A DNA stretch of 33,215 nt from NCBI GenBank assembly GCA_030156825.1, contig JASGLU010000020.1:1-33215 (forward strand). Direction: 5' to 3'. How positions within the stretch are numbered: the stretch's first letter is position 1; every line of letters begins with the position of its first letter. Positions 8,418 through 11,585 of this stretch are shown in pieces. The position numbers and the translations under genes are program-made. The notes under the pieces were generated by a model. That model made no database searches and was not told the DNA's origin. It was given only the letters and a program-made list of their open reading frames with translations. This DNA is from Candidatus Atribacteria bacterium. Its GTDB lineage: Bacteria > Atribacterota > Atribacteria > Atribacterales > JASGLU01.

Positions 8418-9929
8418 ATGGAACCAGTCTTGAAAATGGAAAATATTTCTAAAGCTTTCCCTGGAGTTCGAGCTCTGGAGAAAGTAAGCATAGAAGTTTT
8501 TCCTAATGAAATTGTTGGTTTAGTGGGAGAAAACGGAGCAGGGAAAAGTACTTTGATGAAAATTTTAGCCGGGGTTTATAGAGCTGATAAGGGAGAAATT
8601 TTTCTTCGGGGGAAAAAAGTGGAGATCAAAAATCCCCATGATGCTCGAGCGTTGGGGATTGGGATGGTTTTTCAAGAACAAGCAGTGTTACCCAATATGC
8701 GAGTTTATGAGAATCTTTTTTTAGGGCGCGAGAAAATTTTTGCTCGTAGGGGAGCTTTAGACCAAAAATTAATGATGCAGGAAGCAACAAAAATTCTTGA
8801 AGAAGTGGGATTAGAATTATCTCCTCAGGTTTATGTCCATGAGCTAAATTTTATGGAGCGGCAGATGGTAGAAATTGCCCGAAACATCTGGTTAGCTCGT
8901 CAGGCTCAAGTTGACTATCCCACCATTGTTCTGGATGAACCCACTACCGTTTTGGAAGAAGAAGAGATTGAAAAGCTGTTTAACAAGCTAAGAGAACTGA
9001 AGAAAAGAGTTTCTTTCATTTATATTTCTCATCGATTGAAGGAAGTAGTTGAACTTTGTGACCGGGTTTATGTTCTAAAAGATGGTCACAATGCTGGATG
9101 TTTTTCTCGTGAAGAACTTTCTGAAGAGCTTTTGCGATCTAGGATGGTAGGACGAGAATTACATGAGGAGTATTATTTAGCATCAAGACAAAGAAAACCA
9201 GCAGAAAAGGTTGTTTTGGAACTGCGAAACTGCACTAAAAAGGGTGCTTTTTATGACATTTCTTTTAGCTTACATCAGGGGGAAATACTGAGTTTATGTG
9301 GAACAGTAGGGTCGGGTAAGGAGGAGCTTTGTAGGGTTCTCTATGGTGAAACCAAATTTGATTCTGGGGAGATTTGGATAGATGGGAAAAGAGTAAGCAT
9401 TAATTCTCCTGCTCAGGCTTTTGCCTTGGGTGTTGGATATATTTCCGAGGACCGAAGGAATGAGGGCTTGGTTTTACATCTTCCCATATTTGAAAATATT
9501 ACTTTACCCATTATCCATCGTTTAGTTCGAGGTTTTTTGGTCAGACGAGAAGAACAATTTCGTCTTTCCCAGGAAATGATGAATAAGCTGCAGATTAAAG
9601 CTCTTTCTCCCTCGGTTTTGTGTTTTAACTTAAGTGGAGGTAATCAGCAGAAAGTGGTGATAGCTAAGTGGTTGCTTTCTCAGGTTAAAGTTCTTATTAT
9701 GTCTCATCCTACTCGAGGAGTGGATGTAGGAGCAAAACACGAAATTTATGCTCTCATTAGAGAAATGGCAGAAAATGGAATGGCTATGATTATTATGGGA
9801 GATAGTTTTGAAGAAGATATTGGTTTGGCCAATCGGATTATAGTCATGAAAGACGGAAGAGTAAGCGGAGTGTTGGATGCTACCGAATCTAAGCCTGCTC
9901 CTTCTGATTTAATACAATATGTAGTTTGA
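8418..9929 (+). CDS. sugar ABC transporter ATP-binding protein, two fused NBDs (RbsA/XylG-like)
   Basis: This cytoplasmic ATPase energises import. The 503 residues hold two ABC domains in tandem, the usual RbsA/MglA/XylG size. NBD1 has Walker A GENGAGKST (37-45) and an intact Walker B/catalytic site VLDEPTT (near 171). NBD2 has an altered Walker A (GTVGSGKEE, near 295-305), a perfect signature NLSGGNQQK (near 409), and a Walker B in which the usual LDEPT is MSHPT (Ser429 and His430 replace Asp and catalytic Glu). NBD1's own signature is degenerate (LNFMERQ). Only the composite site using NBD1 Walker A/B with the NBD2 signature looks hydrolytically competent, as in asymmetric ABC ATPases. The start has an AGGGGGT Shine-Dalgarno. 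The next gene follows only after a 720-base repeat-filled gap. Confidence 0.93.
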   Translation: MEPVLKMENISKAFPGVRALEKVSIEVFPNEIVGLVGENGAGKSTLMKILAGVYRADKGEIFLRGKKVEIKNPHDARALGIGMVFQEQAVLPNMRVYENLFLGREKIFARRGALDQKLMMQEATKILEEVGLELSPQVYVHELNFMERQMVEIARNIWLARQAQVDYPTIVLDEPTTVLEEEEIEKLFNKLRELKKRVSFIYISHRLKEVVELCDRVYVLKDGHNAGCFSREELSEELLRSRMVGRELHEEYYLASRQRKPAEKVVLELRNCTKKGAFYDISFSLHQGEILSLCGTVGSGKEELCRVLYGETKFDSGEIWIDGKRVSINSPAQAFALGVGYISEDRRNEGLVLHLPIFENITLPIIHRLVRGFLVRREEQFRLSQEMMNKLQIKALSPSVLCFNLSGGNQQKVVIAKWLLSQVKVLIMSHPTRGVDVGAKHEIYALIREMAENGMAMIIMGDSFEEDIGLANRIIVMKDGRVSGVLDATESKPAPSDLIQYVV

Positions 9930-9933
9930 GTCA

Positions 9934-9986
9934 TTTGCAGGATAGACGGCCATGCTGCTTTGCAGCACCAGATAACAATGAAAACA
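9934..9986 (+). repeat. 53-bp perfect direct repeat, copy A of the dispersed element
   Basis: This 53-base unit, beginning 'tttgcaggatagacggcc' and containing the small hairpin tgctgc-ttt-gcagca and 'accagataacaatgaaaaca', recurs without a mismatch at 10226-10278. It begins 4 bases after the ATPase stop codon. Confidence 0.9.
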
Positions 9987-10084
9987 GAATTTAATATAAT
10001 CTTAGAGAAATAATAGTGGTCTATCCTTTCAGCTTTTCGTTTTTTTCAGTCTTTGCCTTTTATTTTTTAAATTTTTTGCTTTTT

Positions 10085-10152
10085 TCGGGGGGCTATAAGG
10101 GGGGCAGCGCCCCCATTACTGAGGAATGTCTTTCTTCCTCAGTAAGTATTTA
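10085..10152 (+). repeat. G-rich plus 'actgaggaa' hairpin module, copy 1
   Basis: A G-rich block (ggggggctataagggggg, then a gggggc-agc-gccccc hairpin, then 'cattact') is followed by a 10-bp stem tactgaggaa / ttcctcagta. Related modules follow at 10186, 10457 and 10549. Confidence 0.75.
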
Positions 10153-10163
10153 TCTTTTTAAGC

Positions 10164-10220
10164 TTTTTTTTTTTTTTTTTTTTTTGTGGGGGGGTTTAGG
10201 GGGGGCGAAGCCCCCATTAT
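10164..10220 (+). repeat. T22 homopolymer and G-rich module, copy 2
   Basis: An uninterrupted run of 22 T (10164-10185) precedes a G-rich block with a gggggc-gaa-gccccc type hairpin and 'cattattgcc', matching the ends of the other modules but lacking the actgaggaa stem. The hairpins before and the T run together could act as a terminator inside the operon. The exact run length is open to sequencing error. Confidence 0.65.
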
Positions 10221-10225
10221 TGCCG

Positions 10226-10340
10226 TTTGCAGGATAGACGGCCATGCTGCTTTGCAGCACCAGATAACAATGAAAACATGGGGTTCTTGAGGTTCATTTT
10301 CACCCTCACCCTAACCCTCTCCCGTCAAGGGAGAGGAGAA
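10226..10340 (+). repeat. dispersed repeat element, copy B (longest)
   Basis: The first 53 bases are identical to 9934-9986. The following part ('ggttcttgaggttcatttt', 'caccctcaccctaac', hairpin cctctccc-gtcaa-gggagagg) matches the minus-strand copy at 486-570. This copy joins both parts and so best defines the full element. Confidence 0.8.
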
Positions 10341-10456
10341 AGGCGTCTTGGATGCCCGATTACTAATTTCGGGCATGACGGAAAAGGGATACAATGTAGA
10401 AAACTGAGGAAGTGCTTTTCCCCCAGTTGTCTTTTTAGTCGTTGTTTTTTGCCTTT

Positions 10457-10515
10457 TGGGGGTTATAGGGGGTTTACCCCCTATAACTGAGGAAAGTACC
10501 TTTCTTCCTCAGTAA
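10457..10515 (+). repeat. G-rich plus 'actgaggaa' hairpin module, copy 3
   Basis: A perfect 10-bp stem ttataggggg-ttta-ccccctataa (10463-10486) runs directly into a second stem, actgaggaa / ttcctcagt, in the same order as copy 1. A degenerate 'aactgaggaagtgctttt' near 10402 may be the remnant of another. Confidence 0.7.
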
Positions 10516-10548
10516 TATTTTAATCTTTATCTTTTAATCTTTGTTTTT

Positions 10549-10620
10549 GGGGGTTATTAGGGGGGTATTTTCCCCCTGATAGTCGGGGTTGATAAGGGGG
10601 GCAGTGCCCCCATTATTGTT
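10549..10620 (+). repeat. G-rich module, copy 4
   Basis: Two G-rich half-modules in tandem; the second (ggggttgataaggggggcag, then tgcccccattattg) aligns with copy 1 almost base for base. It ends about 35 bases before the second permease gene. Confidence 0.65.
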
Positions 10621-10652
10621 CTTTTTAGGATAAATTTATAGGGAGGACGAAA

Positions 10653-11585
10653 GTGGATAAAGGGAAATTGTTAGCTTTAAGTGTAGTTGCCGTTCTTTTT
10701 GCTGTTTTGGCTTTTTCTAGCCCTCAAGCTTTTCTCTCTAGCTATAATGTTGGAACTCTTTTGGATTACGCTGCTACTTATTTTATAGCAGCTATCGGTT
10801 TAACTTTTGTGATTATGATTGGCAGTATCGATTTATCTATAGGAGGGATGCTCTCTCTTTTTACTGTTGTTTTTGTTTTGACTCTTAATTCTTTGGGTTT
10901 TTGGGCGTATCTTATTACTATTGGTTTGGGTTTCCTTTTGGGAATGGCCAACGGTTTAATTTTTACTAAGCTTAAAATTCCCTCCTTTATTGGAACTTTT
11001 GGAGCTTCGGGGGTATTTGCCAGTTTAGCCTTGATAGTTTCTGGCGGTCGCCCCATCGGATTGCACCCTCAAGCCTTATCTCTTCTCAAACCTTTAACTT
11101 TTGAGTTAGGACCAATTAAGGGTTCCCATTTATTGGCCTTTCTTCTTTTCGGTATATTTTTTTTGATTCAAAATTCTACTCCCTTTGGCAAGTATGTAGC
11201 GGCCGTTGGAAACTCAGAAAGGGCCACCTGGTTAAGTGGAGTTAGGGTAGACCGAACTAAAATTTTCTGTTTTGCTCTATCTGGGCTTTCGGCAGCCTTA
11301 GCTTCCATAGTTTTAGTTTCTCGAATGTTGAGTGGAGACCCCACTATCGGAACTCCTTATCAACTTCAAGTAATTGCTGCAGTAGTAGTAGGGGGTACTG
11401 CTCTTACTGGTGGAGTAGGGGGTATATTTAACACCCTGCTTGGGACTTTAATCATTACTTTGGTGGGCAATGGTTTGTATGTAGTGGGAATAGACGTATA
11501 TTATCAGATGATAATAACTGGTATTATTACTATGGTGGCGGTTATTTTAACCCTGGATCGAACAAAAATAAAGGTAGTGAAATGA
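10653..11585 (+). CDS. second sugar ABC transporter permease (RbsC-like, BPD_transp_2)
   Basis: A 310-residue hydrophobic permease of the same family as the upstream one. Landmarks: an N-terminal membrane segment at about 5-25, 'MIGSIDLSIGGMLSL', 'GLIFTKLKIPSFIGTFGASG', the coupling-loop region 'GKYVAAVGNSERATWLSGV', and 'AAVVVGGTALTGGVGGI'. The GTG start at 10653 is preceded by a strong GGGAGG. It is clearly a paralogue, not a duplicate, of the first permease. It follows the ATPase across the repeat-filled gap and ends 24 bases before the dehydrogenase gene. It probably forms a heterodimeric channel with the first permease. If the repeats terminate transcription, its level would be lower than that of the upstream genes. 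Confidence 0.92.
   Translation: MDKGKLLALSVVAVLFAVLAFSSPQAFLSSYNVGTLLDYAATYFIAAIGLTFVIMIGSIDLSIGGMLSLFTVVFVLTLNSLGFWAYLITIGLGFLLGMANGLIFTKLKIPSFIGTFGASGVFASLALIVSGGRPIGLHPQALSLLKPLTFELGPIKGSHLLAFLLFGIFFLIQNSTPFGKYVAAVGNSERATWLSGVRVDRTKIFCFALSGLSAALASIVLVSRMLSGDPTIGTPYQLQVIAAVVVGGTALTGGVGGIFNTLLGTLIITLVGNGLYVVGIDVYYQMIITGIITMVAVILTLDRTKIKVVK

Follow-up and report, generated by a model that had tools for sequence, protein, structure and literature searches.

A gap in a sugar transporter operon of an Atribacteria genome is probably filled by a non-autonomous mobile repeat that inserted twice in succession

Results

Locus and composition of the gap

The window, a stretch of 33,215 bp, is contig 33 of genome G000 (1.98 Mb, 98 contigs, ~93% complete), which belongs to an uncultured Candidatus Atribacteria bacterium of the phylum Atribacterota. 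It carries a sugar transporter operon in the order GntR regulator, sugar-binding protein, permease 1, ATPase, permease 2 and short-chain dehydrogenase, followed by an FGGY kinase on the strand opposite to the other genes. The RbsA-like sugar ABC transporter ATPase (8418–9929, + strand, stop codon 9927–9929) and the RbsC-like second permease (BPD_transp_2; 10653–11585, + strand, GTG start at 10653) are both intact, and from the stop codon of the former to the GTG of the latter extend 723 bp (9930–10652). No Rfam family scores above its gathering threshold in this gap; at the contig start, two matches to group II intron domains D1–D4 (124 and 40 bits) are found at 82–378.

An earlier note on this DNA, made from the sequence alone, described the gap as an array of at least four G-rich modules, two of them with an additional stem, interleaved with two copies of a dispersed element and a run of 22 T residues. 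All of these are present, and the modules number five (10087–10114, 10188–10215, 10458–10481, 10549–10576 and 10585–10611). The ACTGAGGAA...TTCCTCAGT stems are located at 10116–10145 and 10486–10513, the dispersed element corresponds to two 53-nt repeats of 100% identity (9934–9986 and 10226–10278), and the T22 run occupies 10164–10185, with no other run of A or T longer than 8 elsewhere in the window. What the note missed is that these parts belong to two units, 9945–10236 and 10237–10632, each with the pentamer GGATA at its end and each with a conserved head, termed head A.

All features of the two units lie on the + strand. A first GGATA at 9940–9944 represents the left copy of the target core, of which the relative G015 has a single copy in its empty site. 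Unit 1 (292 bp) consists of head A and a G-module tail ending in GTTTGCAGGATA; most of it has relatives elsewhere in G000 at 83–92% identity. Its head (9940–9986; 68.7 bits with covariance model R1) forms the hairpin TGCTGC/GCAGCA, and GGTCTATCC at 10018–10026, complementary to the GGATAGAC end, provides an outer stem in the left part of the unit. There follow G module 1 with its ACTGAGGAA stem, the T22 run and G module 2. Of the copies read, this one alone has the T22 run, where the others have AAGCTTTTTTGTATTTGTTTTATC, and the 7-G runs are likewise private to it; T22 could result from slippage or assembly error.

The second head A (10232–10278) is identical to the first, and its GGATA doubles as the end of unit 1. 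The identity extends to the preceding TTTGCA and may reflect exchange between the two heads. Unit 2 (396 bp) combines the same head with another tail, ending in CTTTTTAGGATA, which contains a cargo repeat CCCTCACCCTAACCCTCTCCC..GGGAGAGG (10301–10341), a cargo palindrome GATGCCCGA..TCGGGCATGAC (10351–10379), G module 3 with the second ACTGAGGAA stem, and G modules 4 and 5 (10549–10611). Atribacterota genomes for which no head A was detected also contain dispersed copies of the CCCTCACCCTAACCCTCTCCC repeat. The right copy of the target core (GGATA, 10628–10632) completes the unit. The gap gives 66 matches in its own genome, many of them long (up to 340 bp at 83–92% identity) and of the same internal order.

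A covarying hairpin in a conserved head

Head A comprises 47 nt, namely GGATAGACnnnCATG, a hairpin with a 6-bp stem, and CACCAGATRAnnATGAAAA. The letters of the stem vary among copies (for instance CTGC/GCAG, CCCC/GGGG or CCAC/GTGG) without loss of pairing, 90.8% of cells being paired. Covariation amounts to 27 two-sided changes, a value reached in 0/500 shuffles, a control that leaves the kinship of the copies out of account; slid controls lose the signal. In many copies GGATAGACC pairs with a downstream GGTCTATCC to form the outer stem, and in a compact form the outer-stem complement reaches 12 bp, and GACGCTC is matched by GAGCGTC.

Downstream of the head, the tail belongs to one of several unrelated types, including unrelated dispersed repeats. 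The right end is short, usually TTT[AT]CA joined to GGATA, and no consistent hairpin was found there (29 clusters, mean z about −1). A repeat of ~110 bp, ending in AGACTGATAGATAA or similar, lies directly 5′ of head A at loci L017, L018, L023, L030, L031, L034, L035 and L044.

Filled and empty GGATA sites

In nine related genomes that have the operon, the gap between ATPase and permease 2 measures 21–50 bp and is free of elements. An empty site is seen in G015 (91% and 94% protein identity), where a 43-bp gap with one GGATA reads ATPase-...GATTTTCAGGATAAATTTATAAGGAGG-permease. The sequence is GAGTGATTTTCAGGATAAATTTATAAGGAGGACGAAAgtg in G015; in the window, GAGTCATTTGCAGGATA is followed by 688 bp with GGATA at the end and these by AATTTATAGGGAGGACGAAAgtg. 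Excision of these 688 bp (9945–10632) yields the junction of G015 with no alignment gap at that position. In G021, where the gap is 530 bp compared with 723 bp in the window, the same GGATA is filled, with a different first unit and different modules, which could mean two separate hits on this site, or else exchange or loss of elements.

A second insertion in G000 follows the same logic. Here a 179-bp unit splits an OmpR-type response-regulator gene (L037:1541–1724) that is uninterrupted in G015, G019 and G021. Once the unit and one GGATA are taken out, the alignment to these three relatives runs over 404 columns without a gap, and the frame is open, reading LTAKDRIKDRVKGLDSGADDYL. Copies sit at (A)GGATA(GA), with GGATA left on both sides; the flanks prefer G (0.84) then A (0.82) on the right and A (0.81) on the left. 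The insertion logic of head-A units is well supported. Some units lie exactly at gene ends (L021, L032, L041 and L072), where the GGATAG of the element supplies the stop as GGA-TAG; selection against gene damage might give as many such stops.

Could the gap be a product of the metagenome bin, with repeats collapsed or misjoined? Several contigs of the G000 assembly do end in head-A repeats, and in the window further copies lie near both contig ends (635–681, 548–574 and 33082–33133, − strand; 56.7, 21.2 and 22.6 bits). The private T22 and 7-G runs point the same way. However, the flanks rejoin exactly as in G015, the GGATA used here is also occupied in G021, and the complete, single-contig relative G008 carries at least 150 copies, so that an assembly artefact is extremely improbable.

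Strict head-to-tail arrays

At the loci studied as stretches, 31/31 close pairs of units are arranged head-to-tail and 0 are inverted, and at each of the 31 tandem junctions a TTTnCA-like end precedes the GGATA-like start of the following unit. The same rule holds in G008, where the 150 heads listed form 115 sites: among them, neighbours within 1 kb share the strand in 35 cases and are opposed in 0. A replication-strand bias is expected for single-strand transposition; among the heads listed in G008, any such bias is weak (66–69 versus 46–49 sites, p 0.04–0.19). Tails frequently differ between adjacent units, so the order is not accounted for by simple tandem duplication. The stepwise, modular accumulation that the earlier note had suspected is supported by the two tandem units in the gap, the empty sites in relatives and the head-to-tail arrays throughout the genome.

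Transcription and quadruplex potential

A different reading, also put forward in the note, is that of a regulatory attenuator or terminator, which would separate expression of permease 2 and the dehydrogenase from that of the genes upstream. The RNA structure of the gap region is indeed very strong (z = −8.1; 0/20 shuffles as strong), and T-rich stretches follow its hairpins. Yet terminator-like sites are not above chance (4 compared with 2.0, s.d. 1.9, in shuffles). Moreover, the same units recur at numerous unrelated loci, and in most relatives the operon carries no insertion at this place, which argues that the insertion is not a conserved operon part. We consider a regulatory role of this kind unlikely. 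A promoter-like ATAACA-17-TATAAT at 9972–10000 is within chance expectation; its TATAAT is common to units with the GAATTCAATATAAT tail and, judged by sequence, could drive downstream genes.

The G runs had further been proposed to form G-quadruplex DNA. Prediction bears this out for module 2 on the + strand, which matches G3N1-7 and folds at −21.4 kcal/mol with a quadruplex versus −14.2 kcal/mol without, and for a C-rich repeat on the − strand. It fails for the other four modules, where no quadruplex is predicted and the G runs pair with C runs. Confined to these two places, quadruplex potential is not a property of the modules, and it is very unlikely that they matter for this reason.

Distribution of head A

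In a collection of 84,980 species genomes, an exact head pattern matched 58 stretches, every one of which bears the title Candidatus Atribacteria; among viral contigs and phage records it gave no match. The covariance model detects heads in 13/50 Atribacterota genomes and in none of the other 37. Copy numbers by this model are 95 in G000, 17 in G012, 9 in G021 and one or two each in G015, G019, G024 and G037, and the six genomes of genus g6 hold at least 56–123. In the collections searched, the family is hence confined to Atribacteria. No recent movement of the elements was seen. We found no literature on REP-type repeats in Atribacterota, and a literature text search with the head sequence returned only unrelated papers among the matches listed.

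Candidates for the mobilising enzyme

No transposase that mobilises head-A elements was found. One candidate is a REP-associated tyrosine transposase (RAYT), in which case head-A units would be REP elements moved by the resident enzyme. RAYTs (NF047646 above cut-off) occur in relatives rich in head A, G000 retains only a decayed copy, and at one orthologous locus a head A lies ~0.8 kb downstream of the RAYT gene. That head sits beyond the next gene, and at this locus only. Against a REP relationship, the RAYT gene in three such genomes has a perfect 24-bp inverted repeat of its own, GGGGTCAGGTCTTGATTCTTGAAT, immediately adjacent at either end. The enzyme also has a C-terminal HTH like the TIR-associated RAYTs of subclass 2.1, for which no REPs were found (PMC6006769). 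Related genes in six other Atribacterota genomes are accompanied by a similar CAGGTCTTGA-type repeat at one or both ends. By sequence, the Atribacterota genes look like this subclass and like the TIR-associated group with the motif GGGGWSAS (Di Nocera 2013, PMC3733652). The decayed copy in G000 lies beside a ferritin-like gene (L145), and the HTH-tailed RAYT genes at L137, L140 and L142 have a DUF6036 nucleotidyltransferase gene downstream.

Head-A units resemble REP and BIME repeats in being high-copy, short, mostly intergenic, hairpin-bearing, non-autonomous and clustered. They differ in that head A lacks a GTAG or GGAG tag at the foot of its hairpin, reading GGATAGACnnnCATG before the stem, and in their oriented GGATA target, seen in filled and empty pairs. 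They are strictly head-to-tail and never form inverted pairs, unlike the alternating (inverted) BIMEs, and the resident RAYT is flanked by its own GGGGTCAGGTCTTGA inverted repeats instead of head A. Because the RAYT has inverted repeats of its own, the head-A elements are probably not its REPs; the RAYT, a candidate mover on account of the head A near it, was rejected on this ground, and a REP origin appears decidedly unlikely.

Alternatively, a site-specific or RNA-guided recombinase, such as an IS110-like enzyme, could have produced the units as non-autonomous derivatives; GGATA would then be the shared core, and head A would act as a guide or recognition structure. The geometry of tandem junctions (right end–GGATA–left end) and of targets (target–GGATA–target) fits recombination at a shared core, and the covarying hairpin fits RNA or a single strand. 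IS110 genes, however, are absent from G000 and G014, both rich in head A, and also from G021; they do not track with head A, and IS110 was rejected as the mover on this ground. Where IS110 or other transposase genes occur within units, they appear to be independent IS insertions. A recombinase origin seems unlikely.

A Y2_Tnp search (IS91-type) gave no match in the genome and none in any control genome either. The Y1 content of G000 is one decayed fragment, no IS200-type TnpA tracks with head-A elements, and no Y1 gene bounded by head A was seen in the relatives rich in head A, most of whose assemblies are incomplete. A gene-carrying full-length element was sought as well; the long units hold ordinary IS genes or host genes.

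Discussion

On this evidence, the gap between ATPase and permease 2 probably arose when two copies of a non-autonomous mobile repeat inserted one after the other. Each copy consists of the conserved 47-nt head starting with GGATAGAC, a variable tail and a short right end joined to GGATA. We propose that an enzyme acting in trans would recognise the head as a folded single strand, as the covariation of its hairpin suggests, and would join it at GGATA, the tail travelling along as cargo. GGATA is directional and is regenerated at both ends, so that later copies can join head-to-tail only, which explains the modular order. Since the insertion lies upstream of the ribosome-binding region of permease 2, preserved to its right, the operon presumably stays translatable; any effect on transcription would be a side effect.

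Several known systems share parts of this behaviour. Like IS200/IS605 elements and their MITE-like derivatives, head-A units insert in a fixed orientation at a short target (GGATA in two filled and empty pairs and in the flank profiles), with a structured left end and the target sequence always at the left junction. In contrast to them, they have no consistent right hairpin and the same GGATA at both junctions, and no related full-length element with TnpA was found in G000. In IS91 and ISCR elements, one conserved end carries variable adjacent DNA in head-to-tail order; head-A units share one conserved end, variable DNA and this order but hold no gene. Integron cassettes with attC likewise line up head-to-tail, share a folded site and differ in content, as head-A units do. 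These, however, are scattered over the genome at GGATA instead of residing on a single platform, and they show neither a typical GTTRRRY site nor coding cassettes.

Tentatively, head-A units might constitute a class of mobile element specific to Atribacterota, with one structured end, in which the 47-nt head and a minimal TTTWCA end would suffice for oriented insertion at GGATA. The head might then capture other dispersed repeats and spread them as cargo, by means of an enzyme linked to no such element yet.

For REP-like repeats, copy number is the usual ground for inferring movement. In the present case, the comparison of filled with empty sites fixes the target and the joints to the base, in a phylum of which few members have been cultured. 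The rule of strict head-to-tail order explains how bacterial intergenic mosaics can grow stepwise, and the missing enzyme becomes a concrete target for searches.
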